64,000 nucleotides of DNA from Halorubrum sp. BOL3-1 (GTDB taxonomy: Archaea > Halobacteriota > Halobacteria > Halobacteriales > Haloferacaceae): contig NZ_CP034692.1 of the NCBI RefSeq assembly GCF_004114375.1, positions 1,488,001 through 1,552,000 of the forward strand, written 5' to 3'. The notes beneath the pieces were generated by a model. That model was not told the origin of the DNA, made no database searches, and worked only from the letters and a program-made list of their open reading frames with translations. Made by a program: the position numbers and the translations under genes. The stretch's first letter is position 1. Every line of letters starts with the position of its first letter. Of this stretch, positions 50,857-63,584 are shown piece after piece.

Positions 50857-53800
50857 TCAGACGGCGGGAGCCGCGACCGGCGCGACGCTGGCCTGTTCGT
50901 CCGTCTCCTCGTCTTCTTCCGCGGCGGAGCCGCCGTCGGCCGACGCCGCCATGCTCGCGGCCTCCTCGACGGAGTTCGCGAACAGGGTGAGGCCGGCGTC
51001 GGTGAAGTCGGCCGGGTCGTCGTGGAAGAAGTCCATCGCGATCGCCGTGTTCAGGACCTCGTTACGGTCCTCGTCGATCGCGACGCCGGGACCCTCGAAC
51101 TCGCCCTCGTCGCTCGGGCTGAAGTCCGAGTGGCCGAGCACCTGACCGTCGTAGTCGTTGAACCACGAGCCCCAGGTGATCCCGGAGTCGACGACCGCGA
51201 CCGACTCGCCCTCGCTGCCGACGCCGTCGAAGATCGGGTGGTCCGACTCGATGTCGACCTCGACGGGCTGGTCGTCGGCGTCGAGCGAGACGGAGTCGCG
51301 CTCGGCCGGATCGTCGCGGACGTTGTTCAGCCGGTAGATGCCGTCGGCGTACGCCTCGGCGGAGGCACCCTGATCGGAGTCCAGGTAGACGACCGCCTGG
51401 TCGTCACCGAGCGCGTCCGCGAAGTCGGACGCCAGCGAGTCGCTGCCGAAGCGCTGAACGACGAACACGTCGTAGCCGCCCATCTCGTCGAGCAGCTCGT
51501 CCGCGGTCAGCGTGTCGACGTTGGTGTAGGTGCCGTCGTCGAGTTCCTCGGAGAGCGCGCTCGCGATGGCGCCCTCGTGGTAGTCGTTCTCGTCGACGAC
51601 CGCGACCGAGACGTCCTCGGGTTCGCTCGGTCCCTCACCCGGACCCTCGCCCGGCGGCTGCGGGGCGCTCGGGGTCTCCGGGTCGAGCATCGCTTCGTAG
51701 TCGTCGAGGGCCGGGTCCTGCTCCATCTCGGAGAAGAGGGTGTAGCCGTCACCCTCCGCGCCGATGCCGACCCAGTATCCGCCGAACGGGTTGACCGCTG
51801 AACTCATGTCGACGTCGCCCTCGCCGATGTGACCGTCGGCGTGGGAGTCGGCGACCATCCACGTGCTCGGCGTGTAGTAGTCGCCGTCGCCCTTGTTCGT
51901 GCCGTCGGTCCAGAACGCGTGCTCCTCGTCGTGGTACGCCGACGGGCTCACCAGGTTCCACCCGTTGTGGAGGTCGACCTGACCCGGGCTGGCGGGCCCG
52001 TCTCCGGACTGGAATTCGAACGTGGCGTAGGTGTCCTCCTCTGCGACGACGAGGACGGCCGAGAGCGCGCTGAGGCTGTCGTTCGCCGTCAGCATCTGCC
52101 AGTCACCGATCTCGGCGTCGTAGCCGTAGATGGCGCCCTCGAACCCGTCGTCGAACGCGTCACCGACCGTCTGGTCGGTGGCAGCCGGGACGCCGACGGT
52201 GTAGGTCTCGTTGGCCTCCATCGTCAGGTCCACGGCGATCTGCGTCGTGTTCGTGTCGACCTCGCCGAGGTCCGCGGTGAGGAACGGCGAGTAGCGCACG
52301 TCGCCATCGACGCCGTTGTTGGCCTGCGGGCCGTCCGCACCGAACCAGTTGAGCGGCGCCTCGAAGGCCCCGCTCTCCGCGACCATCGCCGTCTCGGTGG
52401 CGACGAGGTCGTTGAAGTGGAAGGTGAGGTCGCTGCCCGCGTCGGACGCCAGCACGCCGGTCGTGGCGTTGACGTCGTTGTTCGCGAACTCGCCGCTCGT
52501 TGCGCTGCCGGAGAACGCGAAGCCGGTAGTGGCGTTCGTGATCTCGTTGTGCGCGGCGTTGGCGACGGCGGCGCCGCCCTCCGCGGCGATGCCGTGCTCG
52601 CTGTCGCTGACGGAGGCGTCGGTCAGGTTACTGACCGAGCCGCCGTCGACGCGGACGCCGGTGCCGGCGTCGGTCACCGTCGCGTCGGTGATGTCGACGC
52701 CGATCGAACTCATCGACGCGACGCCGGTCTCGCCGGCACCGTCGACTTCGGCCCCGGTGACGTCGACGTCGGTCGCGCCGTCGAGCATCACGCCGTACGA
52801 GACGTTCGTCGCGGTGGACGCGTCGACTGCGACATCCGCGCTGTCGGCGATCCGAACGCCGGTGCCGGCGTCGGTCGCCTCGGCGTTCGAGACGGAGACG
52901 GCGTCGCTACCGGCGACGTGGACGCCGTTCGCGGCGGCGCCCGTGGCGCTGGCGTTCGTCACCGTCACGTCGCTGCTCTCGACGACCTGCACCGCGTCGG
53001 AGGCGCCGGTGACCGAGACGTCAGCGATGTCGACATCGCTCGCGGCGGAGACGCCGACGCTCGCGAGGCCCTCGGGCGTTTCGAGGTCGAAGCCCTCGAA
53101 GTGGGTCCCGCTGGCCTGGATGTCGACGTGGGCGTGGCCGTCGGCGGCGCCCGAGTCGGGCGCGACGATCGTGACGTTCTCGCCGGTGATCGTGAGGTTC
53201 GCGGTGTCCTCGATCGAGACCGTCTCGGCGTAGGTGCCGTCGGTGACCTCGATCTCGGCCCCGTCGGGCGCGAGGTTCACGGCCTCCTGGATGGTCTCGA
53301 CGTCCTCGCTGTCGCCGACCGTCAGCGGCGCGTCGTACACCGCGGTCGGGCCGGTGGTGATCGCCACTTCGTGGGAGTCCTCGGGGGCGATGTCCTCGCC
53401 GTCACCCACCGCGTCCGGGTTGTTGGCGAAGGTGAACGTCGCCTCGAGGACCACCGATCCCACGGTGTCCTCCTCGGACTCGACTTCGACCATGTAGTCG
53501 TCGTCGGTCAGCGGGGGCGAGTAGGCGCGCCACTCGTCCCACGCGTTGACCGTTCCGCCGACGTAGAGGTCGAGCTCGGACTGGTTCGCGGTGCTGTCCT
53601 CGTGGAGCGACACCTTCACTTTCTCCAGCTCCTGGACGGCGTACTCGGAGCCGAAGGTGTCACCGGGCGCGTCCTGTGCGGGCTGGCCCTCGTTCAGGAC
53701 GACCGGCGGCGTGGTCGCGGCCCACTCGGCCGCGTTCGCGAGCACGGCGTCGGCGTCGTCGCTGTAGTCGCCGGGCTCGACGAAGGTGGTCGATCCGAAC

Positions 53801-56556
53801 GTCGACAGGAGCACCTCGCGCTCCTGCTGGTGCGTCGCGGCGGCGGGACCGTCAGTCACGCCGCCGGCCTGGACGTAGCCGACCGTCTGGAAGTCGGTGT
53901 CCTCGAACCAGGCGTGGTCCGCGAACCCGGCGGAGTGGATGCCGAAGCTGTCGCCGACCTCGCCGACGCCCTCGAAGATCGGGCTGTCGGCGACGATCTC
54001 CATCTCGGGGTTCGGCGAGGCGAAGCTGTCGAACGTCTCGGCCGGGTCGCCGAGCGCGCTCGACCGGGCGGGGACGCCGGTGCTCCCGCTGCCCCACTGG
54101 TCGAGCCACACGACGCCCGTCGAGGCGCCCGCGGTGTTGTTCTTCAGGTCCTCGACGTGCGTCTCGTCGACGTCCTGGACGACGTAGGCCTCGTACTCGT
54201 CGTTCGCCGAGGCGTCGACGGCCTCGCTGCCGGTGAGCAGCGAGATCTCGTACGACGCCGGCAGCTGGTCCGTGAGCCGGTCGACGACGGCGTCGCCGAA
54301 GGTACCGTCGTCGACGACGGCGATCGGCGTGAACTCGGCGAACACGGTCGTCGGCCCGGTCGTCACGGAGACCGTGTCGCCCGCGCCGGAGAACGTGTGG
54401 TCAAGGGCGAGGTCGCCATCGGTGTTCTGTTCGGTGGTGACGGTGACGTTGGCGAGGCCCGTGTAGTCGCCCACGGAGACGTCCTCGCCCTCCTCGATCT
54501 CCGCACCGTTGAGTTCGACGGTGAGGTCGCCCTCGTAGGTGCCGTTGCGCTCGACCGAGTAGGTCTCGAGGTTGGCGACGTTCACCCGGACCTCGAACTG
54601 CTGACCGCCCTCGATCGCCTCGGGCTGGCCCGCGACGGGCTCGACGCCGAGCGCGTCGGCCAGCGTGATGTTCTGCTCGACGAACGTCTCGTTGTCCGGG
54701 ATCGAGACGCTCTCGCTGGTCTCCTCGTAGCCGAAGCCGCTCGCGGTCACCGTGTAGTTGCCGGGCGGCGAGAGCACGGTGTACTCGCCGTCAGCGCCGG
54801 TCTCGGCCGAGAAGCCGGTCTCCTCGACCTCGACGCTAGCGCCCTCGACGGCGTCTCCGCCGGAGTCAGTCACCGTACCGGTGACGCCGCTGTCGAGTGC
54901 GACCTGGTCGGCCGCCGCCTTGACGTCGATGATCCCGTACCCGTAGCGGATGTCGGGGACGCCCTCGGGCTCGTCGGCGTCGTCCGGCTTCCAAGCGGTG
55001 TCCTCGAACGTCTCCATCGCCGTCTCGCGGTCGACGCTACCGCCGGCCGCGGACAGCATCAGCGCGAACGCCCCCGTCTTGTGGGGCGCGGACATCGACG
55101 TACCGGAGATGGTCTCGTAGTCGCCGTCGTTCCACGAACTCAGCACGTCCACGCCGGGCGCGGCCGCGTTCGGCACGACGTACTCGTCGGGCCAGTCGTC
55201 GGGGGCGTCGTCGCCCCACGCGGAGTCGGTGTCGACCGTCTCCCCGCCGGAGAAGCCCGCGACATCGGCGTCCTCGTTGACCGCGCCGCTCGCGAAGTTC
55301 GGGTAGACGTTACCGGGCGATCCGGTGGTTCCCTCGCCGCCGTTACCGGCCGACGCGACGAGGATGACGCCCGCGTCGCGCGCGTTCTCGGACGGCTCGA
55401 TCATCTCGGTGAAGTAGCCGCCCGCACCGAGGCTCATCGAGATGATGTCGACCTCGGCGGTGTCGACGGCCCACTCCATACCAGCGGCAACACGTGCGAA
55501 GGTACCGCCCCCGTCGTCGCCCAGTACCTTCCCGTGGTACAGTTCGGCCTCGGGTGCGACCCCGAAGGCGGGGGTACCGTTGCCGTCCGGATCGTCGGAA
55601 CCGACGACGGTACCGGAGGTATGGGTCCCGTGTCCGTCGCCGTCGTTCGGCTCGCTTTCGATCGGATTACCGCTGCCGTCCCACGACTGCCACTGCTCGT
55701 CACTGAGCTCCGGCAGGTCGGGATGGTCGTCGTTGACTCCGGTGTCGAGCACGGCGACCTCGACGCCGTCACCCTGGGTGTTGTACGCGTCCCAGACCTC
55801 GGTCGCGTTGATCATGTCGAGGCCGTACGTCGTGTCGTAGTCCTCCGCCTGCATCGACGACGGGGCGATCGGCTCGGCGTCGACCGACGCGTCGTCGGAC
55901 GTCGAGTCCGTCTCGGCGGACTCCTCACTCGTCTCGTTCGCGGCGGTCGCGCCGTCGCTCGACGAGTCGTCACCGCTCGCCGAGTCGTCGCCGTCCGCCT
56001 GCTGTGGCACTGTGACCTCGAAGTTCACGTGCATGCGTTCGACGCCCTCGGCGGACGCGATCTCCTCAGGCGAGATCCGGTCGGGGTTCACCTCGAGGAG
56101 CACGGCGTTCGTGATCCAGAACTGCCGCTCAAGCTCGACGTGTTCCGACGTCTGCGCGAAGCGGACGACGTTCTGCTGAGACTCGGCGGCGTGGTCTTTC
56201 AGCGCGTCGACCGTCGCCTCCTGCCCCTGAACGTCGCTCGTATCCGCGGGAGAGAGCCTGACGACGACGTCTACGGTGTCCCCGTCGGACTCCGCGTCGC
56301 CCTCGAAATTCCGTTCGAGCGCGTCGTCGATCTCGACGTCGTCCGCGTCCTGCTGTGCGAACTCGCCGTCGCTCGTCTGTTCGTACGATACCTCGTCGGA
56401 GAACGCCGGCGCGTCGCCGGCTCCCTCTATCGTGGGTGCGGCGTCGCCCGCGTCCGCGGCAACGGAGGCCCCTGCGACGGGGGCCATCATGGAGACGACC
56501 ATGAATACCGCGAACAGCGCGGCGAGCGCCTTCGTGTAGTTGGTGGTGCGTATCAT
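50857..56556 (-). CDS. Giant secreted subtilisin-like protease with beta-helix (protease 1)
   Basis: The 1,899-residue protein has a Sec signal peptide 1-30 (ALFAVFMVVSMMAPVAGA) and a propeptide to about 190. S8 domain: Asp271 (AVLDTGVN), His309 (GHGTHTSG), Asn405 (SAGNGG), Ser487 (GTSMSAP). A carboxypeptidase-regulatory-like beta domain (about 550-640; GTVTDSGGDAVEGASVEVEE) follows. An unassigned domain of about 200 residues appears twice (about 745-950 and 1650-1870). Between them are a right-handed parallel beta-helix (about 1080-1430; repeated ADVAVDAST-type rungs) and a Pro/Gly linker (PGEGPGEGPSEPE). No PGF-CTERM tail or dockerin. It should be free or surface-adherent outside the cell. 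The ATG at 56556 gives the signal peptide. Confidence 0.9.
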   Translation of the reverse strand: MIRTTNYTKALAALFAVFMVVSMMAPVAGASVAADAGDAAPTIEGAGDAPAFSDEVSYEQTSDGEFAQQDADDVEIDDALERNFEGDAESDGDTVDVVVRLSPADTSDVQGQEATVDALKDHAAESQQNVVRFAQTSEHVELERQFWITNAVLLEVNPDRISPEEIASAEGVERMHVNFEVTVPQQADGDDSASGDDSSSDGATAANETSEESAETDSTSDDASVDAEPIAPSSMQAEDYDTTYGLDMINATEVWDAYNTQGDGVEVAVLDTGVNDDHPDLPELSDEQWQSWDGSGNPIESEPNDGDGHGTHTSGTVVGSDDPDGNGTPAFGVAPEAELYHGKVLGDDGGGTFARVAAGMEWAVDTAEVDIISMSLGAGGYFTEMIEPSENARDAGVILVASAGNGGEGTTGSPGNVYPNFASGAVNEDADVAGFSGGETVDTDSAWGDDAPDDWPDEYVVPNAAAPGVDVLSSWNDGDYETISGTSMSAPHKTGAFALMLSAAGGSVDRETAMETFEDTAWKPDDADEPEGVPDIRYGYGIIDVKAAADQVALDSGVTGTVTDSGGDAVEGASVEVEETGFSAETGADGEYTVLSPPGNYTVTASGFGYEETSESVSIPDNETFVEQNITLADALGVEPVAGQPEAIEGGQQFEVRVNVANLETYSVERNGTYEGDLTVELNGAEIEEGEDVSVGDYTGLANVTVTTEQNTDGDLALDHTFSGAGDTVSVTTGPTTVFAEFTPIAVVDDGTFGDAVVDRLTDQLPASYEISLLTGSEAVDASANDEYEAYVVQDVDETHVEDLKNNTAGASTGVVWLDQWGSGSTGVPARSSALGDPAETFDSFASPNPEMEIVADSPIFEGVGEVGDSFGIHSAGFADHAWFEDTDFQTVGYVQAGGVTDGPAAATHQQEREVLLSTFGSTTFVEPGDYSDDADAVLANAAEWAATTPPVVLNEGQPAQDAPGDTFGSEYAVQELEKVKVSLHEDSTANQSELDLYVGGTVNAWDEWRAYSPPLTDDDYMVEVESEEDTVGSVVLEATFTFANNPDAVGDGEDIAPEDSHEVAITTGPTAVYDAPLTVGDSEDVETIQEAVNLAPDGAEIEVTDGTYAETVSIEDTANLTITGENVTIVAPDSGAADGHAHVDIQASGTHFEGFDLETPEGLASVGVSAASDVDIADVSVTGASDAVQVVESSDVTVTNASATGAAANGVHVAGSDAVSVSNAEATDAGTGVRIADSADVAVDASTATNVSYGVMLDGATDVDVTGAEVDGAGETGVASMSSIGVDITDATVTDAGTGVRVDGGSVSNLTDASVSDSEHGIAAEGGAAVANAAHNEITNATTGFAFSGSATSGEFANNDVNATTGVLASDAGSDLTFHFNDLVATETAMVAESGAFEAPLNWFGADGPQANNGVDGDVRYSPFLTADLGEVDTNTTQIAVDLTMEANETYTVGVPAATDQTVGDAFDDGFEGAIYGYDAEIGDWQMLTANDSLSALSAVLVVAEEDTYATFEFQSGDGPASPGQVDLHNGWNLVSPSAYHDEEHAFWTDGTNKGDGDYYTPSTWMVADSHADGHIGEGDVDMSSAVNPFGGYWVGIGAEGDGYTLFSEMEQDPALDDYEAMLDPETPSAPQPPGEGPGEGPSEPEDVSVAVVDENDYHEGAIASALSEELDDGTYTNVDTLTADELLDEMGGYDVFVVQRFGSDSLASDFADALGDDQAVVYLDSDQGASAEAYADGIYRLNNVRDDPAERDSVSLDADDQPVEVDIESDHPIFDGVGSEGESVAVVDSGITWGSWFNDYDGQVLGHSDFSPSDEGEFEGPGVAIDEDRNEVLNTAIAMDFFHDDPADFTDAGLTLFANSVEEAASMAASADGGSAAEEDEETDEQASVAPVAAPAV

Positions 56557-57002: not shown

Positions 57003-57776
57003 ATGCGCCTCCGAAATCTGGATCCGAGGGACACGACCGGCAACGATCGGAACGGGACGGGCGCACGCGACCGCGACGGTCGGACGGGACGGGACGAGGG
57101 GGAGCCGGCCGCCAACGGTTCGGGAGAGACGACGGCCGCCCGGTCCGCGAGCGCGACCGACGACGCCGCGATCGACGCCCCTCTAGCGACCGATTCCGCG
57201 CCCGACGCCCCCCGGACTGACGGCGGCGGCCGGTCCGCCGCGGACGTGGCCGCCGACGACCTGCTCGAACTGCTGAGCAACCGACGACACCGGTACCTCT
57301 GGCGCGCCCTGCGGCGCGAGGGAAGGGACATGGAGCTGTCCGAAGCCTCCCGCCGGATCGCGGCGTGGGAGAACGGCGTCGACGTCGAGAGCGTCGAGTA
57401 CGACCAGCGGAAGAGCGTGTACAACTCGCTTCACCAGTTCCACTGTCCGAAGATGGCCGACGCGGGATTAGTCGAGTTCGACAAGCGCAGTTCGACGGTC
57501 CGGCTCGCGACGGAGCTGCCGCCGCAGCTGACGGTGACGGTGGAGCCGGACACCGAGGACGTCCGCAACACGGCGTGCGGGGCGCTCGCGCTCGCTGGCG
57601 GCGCCGTCCTCGGCGCGTGGGCGCTCCGACTACCCGTCTTCGGGACGCTGTCGCTGGCCGCGGTCGGTCTCTCCCTCGGCATCGGCGCGAGCGCGGCCCT
57701 GCTCGTCTACTCGCTTTTCGTCCGGACCGAGTACGGCCTGTCGCTCGCGGACGCGCTCAGCCGCGTCGACGGCTGA
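57003..57776 (+). CDS. DUF7344-type winged-helix membrane protein, paralogue 2
   Basis: A 257-residue protein closely related to the 47861 gene. The wHTH has DLLELLSNRRHRYLWRALRR, SRRIAAWENGVDVESVEYDQ and RKSVYNSLHQFHCPKMADAG, followed by the two membrane helices (GALALAGGAVLGAWALRLPV and a second to VYSLFV). It is divergent from protease 1 and convergent with the cohesin gene, so it is well placed to regulate the extracellular genes. TTATGTACAT about 26 bases before the ATG suggests a leaderless start. A longer acidic N-terminus (1-80) is low-complexity. Confidence 0.82.
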   Translation: MRLRNLDPRDTTGNDRNGTGARDRDGRTGRDEGEPAANGSGETTAARSASATDDAAIDAPLATDSAPDAPRTDGGGRSAADVAADDLLELLSNRRHRYLWRALRREGRDMELSEASRRIAAWENGVDVESVEYDQRKSVYNSLHQFHCPKMADAGLVEFDKRSSTVRLATELPPQLTVTVEPDTEDVRNTACGALALAGGAVLGAWALRLPVFGTLSLAAVGLSLGIGASAALLVYSLFVRTEYGLSLADALSRVDG

Positions 57777-57790
57777 GCAGGAGAGCGTGC

Positions 57791-59233
57791 TCAGCGGCGC
57801 CGGGCGAGCAGCGCGACACCGATCGCCGCGAGCAGCGCCGTGAAGACGCCGAATCCCGGCGTCTGCTCTTCGAGGACCGGGTCGTCTCCCCCGCTCCCGT
57901 CGTCGGTCCCGGAGCCGGAGGCGTCGCCGGCGTCGTCGCCCGATCCGGAGCTGCCGTCACCCGCGTCGTCGCCGCCCGCGTCGTCCCCGGAATCGGACGA
58001 CCCCGCTGAGCCGTCGCCGTCCGCCGAGTCCGAGCCGCCGGCGTCGTCGGTCGCCCCCGAGACGGCGAAGTAGGAGAAGCCCGGCGTCTCGGCCGTGTAG
58101 ACGCCGTCGCCCTCGTGGGTCGTCTCCAACCCGGTCCACTCGCCGTCGACCAAGCGGAGCAGCCGCACGTCCTCCGGCGCCGCGCCGAGCGCGTCGGCGT
58201 CGGCGGTGAAGGAGACGGCGGCGCCCGCGACGTCTTCGGACGCCGCGTTCGTCTCGAACTCGACGTACGAGGCCGCGTCGCCGCCGAGAACGGGCGCTCC
58301 CTCCGGGAGGTCGGCCGCGTCGACCGACCGCGCCTCGACGGTGAGCGAGTCGAGCGCGCTCGCGGTCTCGATCGACAGGTCGTCGACCGTGACGGTCTCG
58401 TCGCCGACCGCGTCACCGAAGTCGGCCTCGACGGTCGACCCGGCCTCGATGTCCGCGGCCGAGAGCGTCACGCCGCCGTCGACCGGGGTCACGTCCGCGT
58501 CGACCGTCGCCACCTCGTCGTCGGCGGACGGGGCGGTGCCGTCGGTCGCGCCGTCACCGCTTCCGCCGTCGCTACCGTCTCCGCCATCACTTCCGTCGCC
58601 ACCGTCGCCGCCGTCGCTACCGTCACCACCATCGCTTCCATCTCCGCCGTCACTTCCGTCACCGCCATCGCTACCGTCACCGCCATCGCTTCCGTCGCCA
58701 CCGTCACCACCGTCGCTTCCGTCGAGAGTGACGCCGTCGCGCACGAGGTCGGTGACGGACTCCGCGTCGGTCGTCGCGACGAGCGAGTCCTCCGCGACGA
58801 ACGTCACGTCGGTCGACGAGTCGGGCGCCGCGAAGACGACCGTCGCCATCGTCGGCGCGTCCGCTCCACCGGAGGTGTTTTCGGCGACCTGATTGAAGTT
58901 CAGGGAGCCGTTCTCGTTGTCGACGTTGGTCACGGGATCAGCCGAGAACTGCCCCTCGCCGCCGGAGACGCTCTGGACCGCCGTGTCCTCCGGGTCGAAC
59001 GTCAGCTCCGCCTGATACCCCGCGACGTCCTCGACCGTCGTCGAGAGCGTCACGGTCACCGTGTCTTCCGTCTCGTCCGTTACGTTCAGCGTCAGTTCGC
59101 CCGCCGAGTCCGCCTGTTCGGCGGTCGCCGTCCCCGTCGCGGCCGCGGCGGCGCCGACGGTGAGCGGCGCGAGCGCGACGGTCGCGACGACGAGGCAGAC
59201 GAGCAGGCGTTCGTGTGTTGTGTGGGTCGTCAT
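57791..59233 (-). CDS. Secreted cohesin-domain protein with PGF-CTERM cell-surface anchor
   Basis: The 480-residue protein has a signal peptide 1-31 (LLVCLVVATVALAPLTVGAA). Cohesin-like domain 44-171 (LTLNVTDETEDTVTVTLSTT, DVAGYQAELTFDPEDTAVQS, NVDNENGSLNFNQVA) comes next, then a Gly-Ser-Asp linker. A second beta domain (about 250-395, PGF-pre-PGF-like) follows, and finally PGF-CTERM at 458-480 (TPGFGVFTALLAAIGVALLARRR in motif order: PGF, hydrophobic helix, Arg cluster). Archaeosortase ArtA should cut there and attach the protein to a lipid. It lies next to a dockerin-bearing protease, so it is likely the anchor scaffold for it. Confidence 0.87.
   Translation of the reverse strand: MTTHTTHERLLVCLVVATVALAPLTVGAAAAATGTATAEQADSAGELTLNVTDETEDTVTVTLSTTVEDVAGYQAELTFDPEDTAVQSVSGGEGQFSADPVTNVDNENGSLNFNQVAENTSGGADAPTMATVVFAAPDSSTDVTFVAEDSLVATTDAESVTDLVRDGVTLDGSDGGDGGDGSDGGDGSDGGDGSDGGDGSDGGDGSDGGDGGDGSDGGDGSDGGSGDGATDGTAPSADDEVATVDADVTPVDGGVTLSAADIEAGSTVEADFGDAVGDETVTVDDLSIETASALDSLTVEARSVDAADLPEGAPVLGGDAASYVEFETNAASEDVAGAAVSFTADADALGAAPEDVRLLRLVDGEWTGLETTHEGDGVYTAETPGFSYFAVSGATDDAGGSDSADGDGSAGSSDSGDDAGGDDAGDGSSGSGDDAGDASGSGTDDGSGGDDPVLEEQTPGFGVFTALLAAIGVALLARRR
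58538..58720 (-). repeat. Gly-Ser-Asp tandem repeat linker in the cohesin protein
   Basis: About 60 codons repeat GSDGGD and GDGSDGG (residues 172-232), seen as DNA repeats of 9 and 18 bases with third-position variation. A flexible spacer between the cohesin domain and the wall-proximal domain. Number of repeats probably varies between strains. Confidence 0.85.
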
Positions 59234-59417: not shown

Positions 59418-62400
59418 TTACGCCGGCGGCGCGGCCAGCGAGGCCGCGTCGGTGCCGTTCACCTCCGTTGCGGTCGCTCCCGGTGAGGTCGAGTCGTTGC
59501 CGGCGGTGACCTCGTCGAGGACGGCGAGCACGTCGGAGATATCGACGGAGCCGTCACCGTTGACATCGGCCAGCGCCAGGTTGAATTCACCGGACGGTTC
59601 CTGTTCGGCAACGTGCTGCTGTATCAGGATCGCGTCGCTGACGTCGACCTCGCCGTCGAGGTTTACGTCACCGAGTTCGCCGCTGGTGACCGTGCCGTCA
59701 CTGTAGTCGACCTCCAGCGTCTCGGTGTCGGCGTTCAGCACCTCGGAGTCCTCGGCGTCGAACGCGAGGCTGGCCGAGTCGCCCTCGTCGCCCACGTAGG
59801 TGACGTCGAGTTCGAAGAGGGCCGGCTCGGAGACACCGTTGGCCGCCACTTCCGCGACGGTGACGGTGCCGTTATCGTTGTCGATGTTCCGCGAGATCGA
59901 GCCGGAGAGGTTGGCGCTCTCGGCGCTCTCGACCTCGATCCGGTCCGGATCGAACTCAAGCTGGATCTCGTAGCCGGCGACGTTCTCCGCGTTCGTCTCG
60001 ACCGTCAGCGTGGGGGTCTCGTCGGGACCGACCACGTACTCGTCCTGCCCGAACTGGACCGTTCCGTCACCCTCGGGGGTGGCGTACTTGACCGAGTTCG
60101 CGAGGATCGCGTTCGCCTCGGCGGTGAAGTCCTCCGAGTTGACGAACGCGCTGTACCCGAGCGTCGAGGCGAGCACCGTGTTGTTCGCCTCGTCGACGGC
60201 GAACGCGTCGCCGGCGGTGACAGCGCCGCCGTCGGCCGCGACGGTCGCGAGCACGTCGGCGTCGGTGTCGTTAAACCACGCGTGGTCACCGAACGTGCCG
60301 GTGTGGATCGGGACGGACTCGCCGGACGCGGCGACCCCGTCGAAGATCGGGTGGTCCGCCTGGACGTTGTAGGCGATCGGCGTCGGGACCGCGTCGCCAT
60401 CGAACGTCTCGGCCGGGTCACCCGTCACGTCGGACCGCGCCGGGACGCCGTTGCTGCCGCCGCCCCAGTTGTCGAGCCAGACGGCGCCGACGCTGTCGCC
60501 CTCGACTGCGTCGACGAGGCCGGGAGCGGCCGTCGGTTCGACGTTCTGGACGACGACGACGTCGGCGTCGACGTCGCCGTTCGCGACGGCGCCGGACGTC
60601 GTCGTGGAGACGTTGTAGTTCACCGGCAGTTGCGCGTCGAGCGCGTCAGAGACGGCCCCGCCGAAGTCACCGCTGTCGTCGACGACTGCGACGGACGGCG
60701 TCGGGACATCGCCGACGGCAATCTGTGCGGTCTGGCTGTCGTTCGCCGTGAACACGCCGTGTTCGAAGATGCCGTCCGCGTCCGGCAGTTCCACGTCCTC
60801 GAAGGTGACCGTCCGGGTCTCCGTCGAGTCGAGCGAGACGTCCTGGCTCGCGGCGACGGCGTCGTCGAAGACGAAGTCGACGGACTGCTCGCCGGCGTCG
60901 GAGCCGAGGTTGGTCACGTTCGCGCTCACGTCGATCGGGGCGCCGGAGTCGGCCGATTCGGGCGCGTCGAGGTCGCTCACCTCGAAGACGGTTCCCTCTT
61001 CGATGACCGTGAACGGCGCGGTGGCCTCGTCCTCAACGACCGGGTCTGGCGAGGCCGTCGGGTCGAGGTTCGACCCGACCTGCTGGACCGCCTCCAGCTC
61101 GTCGCCGGGACCGAAGTCGGTCCCGAGCGCGGCGTTTATCGCCGCGATCGAGCCGAAGTTCGTCTCGAACGTCTGCGTCTCGCCCGGCGCGAGGTTCGAG
61201 ACGTCGCTCGGCGGGAAGAAGATGAAGTTCTCCTCGCCGCCCGTGGCCGCGTCCTGGATCGCGGTGATCGTCTGCGTCGAGCCGGTCTGGTCGCCCACGT
61301 TCTCGACGGTCGCCGTGATGAAGATCGACTCCTCCGGCGTGACGTCGTCCTGAACGTCGATGGACGTGACCTCGAACTCGGGACCCTGAAGCTCGTCGAC
61401 GGTCTCCGTCGGGCCGGTCACGACCGTGACCGAGTCACCGAGACCGGCGAAGGTGTGTTCGAGCGCGAACGTCTCGCCGGTCGGCGCGTCGTCCGCGATC
61501 TCGACCGTGACCGGAACGGCGTCGACCGAGAGGCCGTCGAACGTCGTCTCGTTGCCGAGCTCGACCTCGGTCCCGTTGACCGAGACCGTCAGGTCGGAAG
61601 CGTTGAGCCCGGAGTCGTCCGTGAGGTCGATCGTCAGCGAATCGAGATTACGGACGTCGAGGGTGAGATCGACGGATTCCCCGGTCTCGGCGAAGCCCGG
61701 CTGACCGTCGATCAGGTCGACGGCGAGCTGCGGTTCGAGCGCGAAGTCGGTCGTCGCACCCCCGCTCACCTCGGTCGTCTGCTCGGCGTAGCCGAACTGG
61801 TCGACCGTGACCGTCGCCGGATCTTCCGTGGTTTCGAGGACGTACGAGCCGTTCTCGTCGGTCGTCGTCAGCGCGCCGGCGTCGGTGGCGACGGTCGCGC
61901 CGACGACCGCGTCGCCGGTCGCGTTGTCCGTGACCGTGCCCTCGACCGTCTGCGTCTCGTTCAGCGCCTGCGCGGCCGCGTTGACGTCGATGATCCCGGT
62001 CCCGTACCGGATGTCGCGGCCGTCGGCGCTCGGGAACTCGTTGTCCGGCTTCTCGGCCGTCTCCGCGAGCGCGGCCTGGATCAGCCCGGGCGAGAGCTCC
62101 TCGTCCGTGGCCGACTGGAGCAGCGCGACGGCCCCCGCGTAGTGCGGGGCCGCCATCGACGTGCCGCTGGCGGTCGAGTACGTCGCGTTGTCGTCGCCGA
62201 CGTCGCCGCCGAGCGGTCCGGAGCTCAGCACGTTCGCGCCGGGCGCCGAGACGTCGGGTTGGACGTATCGGTGCGGGAAGGTGTCCGGAAGGGTACCGTT
62301 CTCGGGGCCGACGATCTCGACGTCGTCGTCGGTGATCACGTCGCCGCTGGAGAACGCTGCGATCGTCCCGGCCGAGTTGGACGCGCCGATCGCCGCCGAG

Positions 62401-63584
62401 CGGAAGTTCGTCGCCGGCGACGTGACCGGCCCGCCGCCGTCGCCGCTGCCGGAGTTCCCGGCGGAGACGACCGCGACGGTGCCGGCCGCGTTCACGTCTT
62501 GGATCGTCTCGACGTAGGCCGGCTGGAACGTCGACAGTCCCGTGCTGGACGGGAAGCCGAGGCTGAAGCTCGCGACGTCGGCGTCGTTCTCTGCCGCCCA
62601 CTGCATCGAGGCGATGATGTCCTCGGAGAACGCGCCGCCCGCGAACACGTCGGCCATCAGCAGGTCGGCCTCGGGCGCGACGCCGTACCGCGGCACGTCG
62701 CCGGCCGGATGGGCCGCACCGGTCGCGGTGCCGGCGGTGTGCTCGCCGTGCGAGCCCGCGCTGCCGCCGACGAGGGTGCCCTCGTCGACGGTCCCGTTCT
62801 CGACGATCGCCTCCGTGGCGAACTCGAGGTCGGGGTGTCCCTCCTCGGGGTTCGAGATGCCGTTGTCGCCGATCATGACGGTAGCGCCCTCGCCCTGAGT
62901 GTCGAACTCGTCTTCGAACTCGGGGACGTTGATCTGTTCGAGCCCGTAGGTGTAGCTCCCGTTGTGGTTCGCGGGCGCGGCGCCGGCGTCGCTCCCGGTC
63001 GCCGGCGGGTCGGGCCGCTCGTACCGGACGTTCGGGGAGACGGATTTGACGCCGTCGATCTTCTCCGCCAGTACCCGTATGTCGACCTCGCTGAGGTCGA
63101 CCTCGGCGGTGACGACGTTTCCAGCCCAGAACCGGTTCCGGACGTCGGCGTCGAACTCCGTTTCGAGCGCGTCGACGACCGGCTGCTGGGTCGCGTCGGA
63201 GTCGTCTTTGATCGCGTCGAGCGCCGCCGATGAATCGGCGGGCAGGGTCTGCGGGTCGAGCCCGCGCTCAACGGAGATCACGACCACCGTCTCGCCGCTG
63301 GCCGACCGGAGGGCCGGATGGACTCCCGACCGGTCCGCCCCGGGCGCGAGCCGCGTCCCGCGGTCGAGCGCGTCCGCCTTGCGCTCGGCTCGGTCACTCT
63401 GGTTCGTCTCCGCCGTCGTTTCTGTCTGCTGCTGTACCTCTGAGTCGACGTCGGCTGCGCCGGCGTCGACCGCGTCGCCGCCGGTCCCGTCCATGACTGC
63501 CGCCGCACCCGCGGTCGGCGCGAACATGGACGCGACCATGACGGCCGCGAATAGCGTCGCAAAGAGTGTTTTCCGTCGTACCAT
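59418..63584 (-). CDS. Secreted subtilisin-like protease with cohesin-like and dockerin domains (protease 2)
   Basis: The 1,388-residue protein has a signal peptide 1-27 (TLFATLFAAVMVASMFAPTA). S8 domain: Asp240 (MIGDNGIS), His279 (SHGEHTAG), Asn377 (SAGNSG), Ser476 (GTSMAAP). A carboxypeptidase-regulatory-like domain (about 545-610) and several beta-sandwich domains follow. Then come the unassigned domain of about 200 residues (965-1170), a cohesin-like domain (about 1176-1298; NVAGYEIQLEFDPDRIEVES) and a dockerin. The dockerin has two calcium-binding loops: GDVNLDGEVDVSDAILIQ (about 1303) and ADVNGDGSVDISDVLAVLDE (about 1335). The tail has no sorting signal. It should bind a cohesin, probably the anchored one encoded just downstream. 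Confidence 0.9.
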   Translation of the reverse strand: MVRRKTLFATLFAAVMVASMFAPTAGAAAVMDGTGGDAVDAGAADVDSEVQQQTETTAETNQSDRAERKADALDRGTRLAPGADRSGVHPALRSASGETVVVISVERGLDPQTLPADSSAALDAIKDDSDATQQPVVDALETEFDADVRNRFWAGNVVTAEVDLSEVDIRVLAEKIDGVKSVSPNVRYERPDPPATGSDAGAAPANHNGSYTYGLEQINVPEFEDEFDTQGEGATVMIGDNGISNPEEGHPDLEFATEAIVENGTVDEGTLVGGSAGSHGEHTAGTATGAAHPAGDVPRYGVAPEADLLMADVFAGGAFSEDIIASMQWAAENDADVASFSLGFPSSTGLSTFQPAYVETIQDVNAAGTVAVVSAGNSGSGDGGGPVTSPATNFRSAAIGASNSAGTIAAFSSGDVITDDDVEIVGPENGTLPDTFPHRYVQPDVSAPGANVLSSGPLGGDVGDDNATYSTASGTSMAAPHYAGAVALLQSATDEELSPGLIQAALAETAEKPDNEFPSADGRDIRYGTGIIDVNAAAQALNETQTVEGTVTDNATGDAVVGATVATDAGALTTTDENGSYVLETTEDPATVTVDQFGYAEQTTEVSGGATTDFALEPQLAVDLIDGQPGFAETGESVDLTLDVRNLDSLTIDLTDDSGLNASDLTVSVNGTEVELGNETTFDGLSVDAVPVTVEIADDAPTGETFALEHTFAGLGDSVTVVTGPTETVDELQGPEFEVTSIDVQDDVTPEESIFITATVENVGDQTGSTQTITAIQDAATGGEENFIFFPPSDVSNLAPGETQTFETNFGSIAAINAALGTDFGPGDELEAVQQVGSNLDPTASPDPVVEDEATAPFTVIEEGTVFEVSDLDAPESADSGAPIDVSANVTNLGSDAGEQSVDFVFDDAVAASQDVSLDSTETRTVTFEDVELPDADGIFEHGVFTANDSQTAQIAVGDVPTPSVAVVDDSGDFGGAVSDALDAQLPVNYNVSTTTSGAVANGDVDADVVVVQNVEPTAAPGLVDAVEGDSVGAVWLDNWGGGSNGVPARSDVTGDPAETFDGDAVPTPIAYNVQADHPIFDGVAASGESVPIHTGTFGDHAWFNDTDADVLATVAADGGAVTAGDAFAVDEANNTVLASTLGYSAFVNSEDFTAEANAILANSVKYATPEGDGTVQFGQDEYVVGPDETPTLTVETNAENVAGYEIQLEFDPDRIEVESAESANLSGSISRNIDNDNGTVTVAEVAANGVSEPALFELDVTYVGDEGDSASLAFDAEDSEVLNADTETLEVDYSDGTVTSGELGDVNLDGEVDVSDAILIQQHVAEQEPSGEFNLALADVNGDGSVDISDVLAVLDEVTAGNDSTSPGATATEVNGTDAASLAAPPA

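Follow-up and report, generated by a model that had tools for sequence, protein, structure and literature searches.

Introduction

Class I glutamine amidotransferases (GATases; PF00117), among them PurQ and the GATase of GMP synthase, carry a Cys-His-Glu catalytic triad, need the Cys with which strand 4 ends, and hold their active site in a cleft at the C-terminal edge of the parallel strands. The middle domain of the GH42 galactosidases and the N-terminal domain of IFT52 have a GATase-like fold and no amidotransferase chemistry, and their role is structural or binding; the GH42 domain is a trimerisation domain. ThuA (PF06283) belongs to the GATase1-like superfamily.

The S8 proteases of haloarchaea and their accessory domains are represented by the halolysin SptA, whose C-terminal extension, a disulfide-containing beta-jelly-roll of about 110 residues, lets the protease bind protein substrates more tightly and makes it more stable (PMC3158780). 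In Clostridium thermocellum, S8 proteases bear dockerins and are possibly attached to the cell surface (PMC12484212). Multi-cohesin scaffoldins have rarely been reported from archaea; their general absence has been cited, and up to five cohesins are described in ANME (PMC9012536). Haloarchaeal dockerins have been described as substrate-binding, with cohesins unmentioned (PMC10963439, PMC13260240).

Here we describe two S8 subtilases, P1 and P2, encoded in the window, by which we mean the whole 64-kb stretch of Halorubrum sp. BOL3-1 DNA that was analysed. Both contain an uncatalogued module of ~200 residues for which we use the name GDOM. How does GDOM compare with the domains above? It shares its predicted fold with the class I GATases, but it lacks their catalytic Cys and its profile match to them is not significant. 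It is like ThuA in fold class and in a profile match over the C-terminal half, where both have HPI..G and terminal N-A-V-x-(W/Y) motifs; unlike ThuA, it has no Pfam match, its N-terminal half is unmatched, and it occurs in a setting of secreted multidomain proteases, in Halobacteria only in what was searched. Its structural matches to the GH42 and IFT52 domains are weaker, and the organisms and hosts differ. Finally, like the SptA extension it is an accessory domain of haloarchaeal S8 proteases, but the two folds are unrelated.

Results

A genome search identified two PF00082 subtilases, P1 and P2, both within the window. The features of P1 and P2, all on the minus strand and in window coordinates, are as follows.

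50857..56556 (-), P1 gene, 1899 aa from the ATG at 56556
P1 module order: signal peptide, S8 subtilase, CarboxypepD_reg, Ig-like, GDOM a, Ig-like, NosD-type beta-helix, unassigned region, GDOM b
54934..55773 (-), P1 Peptidase_S8, PF00082 E 1.5e-38
53683..54339 (-), GDOM copy P1a, P1 residues 759-977 (phmmer)
52456..53292 (-), P1 NosD/beta-helix region, TIGR04247 and PF05048 matches
50923..51621 (-), GDOM copy P1b, placed in a distinct subfamily, P1 residues 1665-1897 (phmmer, tree)
59418..63584 (-), P2 gene, 1388 aa
P2 module order: S8, CarboxypepD_reg, Ig-like, CARDB, GDOM, cohesin, dockerin
62043..62894 (-), P2 Peptidase_S8, PF00082 E 1.7e-32
60045..60704 (-), GDOM copy in P2, P2 residues 961-1180, the sequence used for the structure model

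The P1 open reading frame opens at GTG 56610, giving 1917 aa, and the ATG at 56556 stands before a clear signal peptide (MIRTTNYTKALAALFAVFMVVSMMAPVAGA). P1 residues are numbered here on the 1917-aa frame; subtracting 18 gives the protease 1 positions of the original prediction. Read from the translation, the D/H/S motifs of the S8 domain are all present in P1 (VLDTG, GHGTHTSG, GTSMSAPH), and the S8 domain of P2 likewise has D/H/S motifs.

The three GDOM copies, two in P1 and one in P2, are ~207-220 aa long and are the only ones in the genome. Compared with one another by phmmer, P1a and P2 match with E 4e-48, P2 and P1b with E 5e-21, and P1a and P1b with E 3e-15, values so far beyond chance that the three copies are homologous. 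The original prediction of a ~200-residue domain occurring three times in two giant proteases is thereby borne out (phmmer E 1e-48 to 1e-15), although the span given for it covered protease 1 and the third copy lies outside, at about 60045-60704. The predicted order of motifs also holds across the copies, with a substitution in P1a and losses in P1b. Every motif named is common to P1a and P2, except that P1a reads SPIFEGV where the pattern is HPIFDGV; P1b retains AVVDE, VVQ, (V)YLD, DPAE, HPIFDGV, GES, SWF.DYD, VLNTA and LFAN, and is without GVPARS and DHAWF. P1b does depart from the motifs, as its earlier description as the most diverged copy implied, but the tree gives it a well-supported subfamily of its own and it is not simply a drifted P1a.

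In that tree, P1a groups with first-copy orthologues, while P1b falls in an 11-row clade (support 100/99), where it is joined by, among others, domains that other proteases have in single copy. Judged by these placements, P1b belongs to a distinct subfamily and is not a decayed duplicate. P1 is a combination of two GDOM subfamilies, and the same combination occurs in G413, from another family. A tandem duplication within P1 was considered and is rejected by the tree. Over copy P1a, a close P1 orthologue from Halorubrum tebenquichense (L005) shows 91% identity.

Single-sequence and profile searches with the three copies and a 42-member alignment returned no GDOM match in Pfam, NCBIfam or the PDB sequences. 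A weak, scattered match to DUF6440 (E 0.0014, 3 members) and a weak lone match to Sul2 (E 0.0021, one member) were judged to be chance. Likewise, no description of the domain was found in the literature searched, in which few subscription journals were within reach. An iterative search of fetched regions yielded 48 copies in 39 ORFs, all from Halobacteria, across which the distribution is patchy: relatives occur in 8 of 52 genomes of the genus, in 17 of 99 of the order, in 15 of 393 across the phylum (every match within the same order), and on nine plasmids, all haloarchaeal, among the 72,556 searched. None were found in phages or viral contigs. A fold search of BFVD gave weak matches only, including viral amidotransferases and FGARAT-type proteins; no sign of a bacterial origin was found, the plasmid matches being haloarchaeal only and the bacterial chromosomes having been covered by one pattern-based scan. 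In what was searched, GDOM is a new haloarchaea-restricted family of known fold.

An S8 domain stands alongside GDOM in 30 of the 39 ORFs. Among the nine ORFs without one, four are broken pieces of one MAG and one is truncated where its contig stops, leaving four that are truly without S8 (L049:14806-16479, L055, L058 and L066). L055, L058 and L066 are large; the first two contain LamG lectin-type domains and the third GLUG repeats. In the MAG of halophilic archaeon J07HX64 (L004, L006), two loci lying 30 kb apart contain several copies of GDOM, along with CARDB repeats, in disrupted reading frames, which reflect either assembly errors or decay.

What fold does GDOM adopt? An AlphaFold2 model built on the 42-sequence alignment, with the P2 copy as query, has a pLDDT of 93.9 and a pTM of 0.91, and its top PDB matches by Foldseek are class I GATases (TM 0.57-0.72). 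PurQ 3d54 leads (E 7.7e-7), the GATase of GMP synthase 2a9v follows with E 1.8e-6 and TM up to 0.67, and the M. jannaschii GATase reaches a TM of 0.72; nearly all PDB matches with E <1e-3 are class I GATases, aminodeoxychorismate and anthranilate synthases included. Further down the list are GH42 5xb7 (E 4e-3) and IFT52 5fms (E 3e-2), both known as non-catalytic users of the GATase-like fold. The predicted fold of GDOM is thus class I glutamine-amidotransferase-like. Structure prediction and fold comparison, suggested earlier as a check, agree with the initial guess of a Rossmann-like fold of GATase or ThuA type, the GATases topping the Foldseek list and ThuA emerging by profile. The earlier remark that the domain has no name in S8 proteases has stood as well, the profile search having given no Pfam family; a clear match to a family of assigned function was looked for in Pfam and none was found.

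By profile comparison (hhalign), haloarchaeal ThuA matches the 42-row GDOM profile with E 2.4e-4 over query columns 114-214, a similarity limited to about 95 columns of the C-terminal half, the N-terminal half being unmatched. Of 59 column-shuffled decoys the best scored 0.13, and the reversed profile 0.5. Under subsampling the match ranged from E 1e-5 to 0.05, weak in some subsamples, with the register usually unchanged. None of the 42 members exceeds the Pfam gathering cut-off for ThuA PF06283. ThuA appears to be the nearest family by profile, weakly and over the C-terminal half only; because no shuffle surpassed the ThuA score, and given the range across subsamples, kinship with ThuA is likely but not proven. 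GATase PF00117 (no hmmscan match; hhalign E 0.3, not significant) and DUF4350 PF14258 (E 0.13) were rejected as the closest family against the 2.4e-4 of ThuA; the cohesin profile gave 0.09.

The catalytic nucleophile of the GATases is lost in GDOM. Cys is absent altogether from 41 of the 42 aligned copies, no Ser column reaches 60% in the 42-row alignment, and the nucleophile site reads (V)YLDQ. In the numbering of the model, the conserved residues are D9 (86%), Q53 (76%), D78 (83%), H118 (86%) and N203 (98%), together with W143. D9, Q53 and D78, which are D969, Q1013 and D1038 of P2, are present in all three window copies and are found at the C-terminal end of strand 1 (E4-9), strand 3 (E49-54) and strand 4 (E73-78), respectively. 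From this secondary structure and conservation we infer a retained cleft with a role other than that of a GATase.

Orthologues of P2 differ in whether they contain the module. In the G290 orthologue (L178 7688-11209, 1174 aa, 76% identical), CARDB runs straight into the cohesin with GDOM precisely missing, while the G470 orthologue (L180), 81% identical overall, has kept it. On this comparison of orthologues, GDOM is self-contained, gained or lost as a unit, and dispensable. It appears to be an exchangeable accessory module, mostly of giant S8 subtilases, and it recurs with other accessory domains.

P2 ends in a cohesin and a dockerin, and the next gene downstream encodes a second cohesin:

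59682..60050 (-), P2 cohesin, PF00963 E 8.5e-5, which for the P2 copy falls narrowly short of the cut-off
59520..59675 (-), P2 type I dockerin, PF00404 E 2.6e-10, over the Pfam cut-off
57791..59233 (-), anchor gene, next downstream of P2: signal peptide, cohesin, G/D/S linker, PGF-CTERM
58718..59095 (-), anchor cohesin, 33% identical to that of P2 (blastp E 7e-17)
57794..57868 (-), PGF-CTERM archaeosortase sorting signal, TIGR04126 29.4 bits, cut-off 24.5

A DUF7344 protein (PF24035) is encoded on the opposite strand, at 57003-57776 (+), between the anchor gene and P1. We call the P2 domain a cohesin because PF00963 matches in 25 of 28 relatives (best 2e-11) and because cohesins, including Archaeoglobus 2xdh, are the top PDB matches of its AlphaFold2 model (pLDDT 91). 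In the anchor protein itself, PF00963 scores under the Pfam threshold. The P2 dockerin has two Ca-binding loops (DVNLDGEVDVSD, DVNGDGSVDISD) and is the only dockerin found by the genome search; an order-wide profile search found exactly two cohesins in the genome, those of P2 and the anchor protein.

The combination of a cohesin-dockerin protease with a neighbouring cohesin anchor recurs in G004, G290, G470, G464, G466, G350, G429 and G087, with some of the anchors ending in a plain hydrophobic C-terminus instead of PGF-CTERM. The P2-type protease of G004 (L177 2866-7275) is without GDOM and has its cohesin-dockerin mid-protein, followed by CARDB repeats. The cluster of G087, a relative within the Natrialbaceae, the family of Natrialba magadii, spans L049 2986-19901 and L050 1-8206. 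It encodes six dockerin proteins, five of them with S8, and beside these three single-cohesin anchors and a scaffoldin of 1260 aa that has eight cohesins and whose PGF-type C-terminus scores below the TIGR04126 cut-off; Pfam recognises seven of the cohesins (E 3.9e-44, 1146 of the 1260 aa searched). This cluster is a candidate archaeal surface protease complex, and together with the P2 and anchor genes it suggests that haloarchaea assemble proteases at their surface in a cellulosome-like manner.

Discussion

What might GDOM contribute to these proteases? We propose, with a probability of roughly 0.6, that it is a new haloarchaeal family of GATase/ThuA-like fold that has lost its nucleophile and serves as an exchangeable, non-catalytic binding accessory of secreted proteins, and that P2 is probably docked. 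The binding role, its ligand and the docking partner are what we infer. The S8 domains of P1 and P2, on their predicted activity, most likely degrade extracellular protein. GDOM would act as an accessory module for binding or positioning, as would the Ig-like, CARDB and beta-helix modules. The putative ligand could be a protein or glycan of the substrate, the S-layer or cell surface, or a neighbouring module, and putative binding would be through the strand-end cleft with D9, Q53 and D78. Such binding would help the protease to catch large substrates or remain close to them, and the unrelated SptA extension provides a precedent (PMC3158780). Finally, the P2 dockerin probably clips P2 to the PGF-CTERM-anchored cohesin protein encoded by the neighbouring gene, with which it forms a predicted pair.

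GDOM might instead have no ligand and serve structure alone, as a rigid spacer or through self-association, like the GH42 middle domain. The presence of GH42 5xb7 and IFT52 5fms in the Foldseek list, the position of GDOM between Ig, CARDB, beta-helix and cohesin modules, and the undisturbed flanking domains where it is absent (L178) would all suit such a role; however, the conservation of D/Q/D at the strand C-termini and of H118 and N203 goes beyond the needs of a spacer, and the strand-end cleft is kept in both subfamilies, so that we regard this explanation as unlikely. Could GDOM still be an enzyme, ThuA-like or with a repurposed Cys-free active site whose substrate would be a sugar or peptide? 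Here the family has no Cys or Ser nucleophile column, and its multiple copies inside proteases and its secondary loss fit an accessory module better. We therefore hold a surviving activity to be distinctly improbable, even though ThuA is nearest by profile, GDOM occurs together with LamG lectin-type domains, and the conserved polar residues, which sit at the canonical edge of the active site, might just as well be those of an active site that has gone unrecognised.

We give very little credence to the suggestion that GDOM regulates the protease by packing on the S8 domain, whether as an inhibitory or chaperone-like element or as protection from autolysis. While 30 of 39 hosts are subtilases and accessory extensions stabilise halolysins (PMC3158780), GDOM is present in four proteins without S8, its distance from S8 varies, and P1 contains two copies.

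To return to the binding module that we favour, it may be part of a larger assembly. At somewhat less than even odds, the window would encode a minimal haloarchaeal cellulosome-like surface proteolytic complex, with one dockerin and one anchor, in which GDOM subtilases would dock via dockerins onto PGF-CTERM-anchored cohesins and GDOM, descended from a dead ThuA-like enzyme, would be a new module for binding substrate or surface. Cohesin-dockerin protease systems are of a known kind, since the S8 dockerin proteases of Clostridium thermocellum (PMC12484212) and the scaffoldins of ANME (PMC9012536) have been described; no haloarchaeal, protease-dedicated cohesin-dockerin complex was described in the literature searched, with few subscription journals within reach. 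This arrangement is arguably a more interesting discovery than GDOM.

What had been an unassigned stretch recurring in the S8 proteases of haloarchaea can now be read as an extracellular family of dead GATase/ThuA-like domains. The clean presence or absence of GDOM between orthologues makes its contribution directly testable, and the anchored cohesin next door is a concrete candidate for what haloarchaeal dockerins bind.
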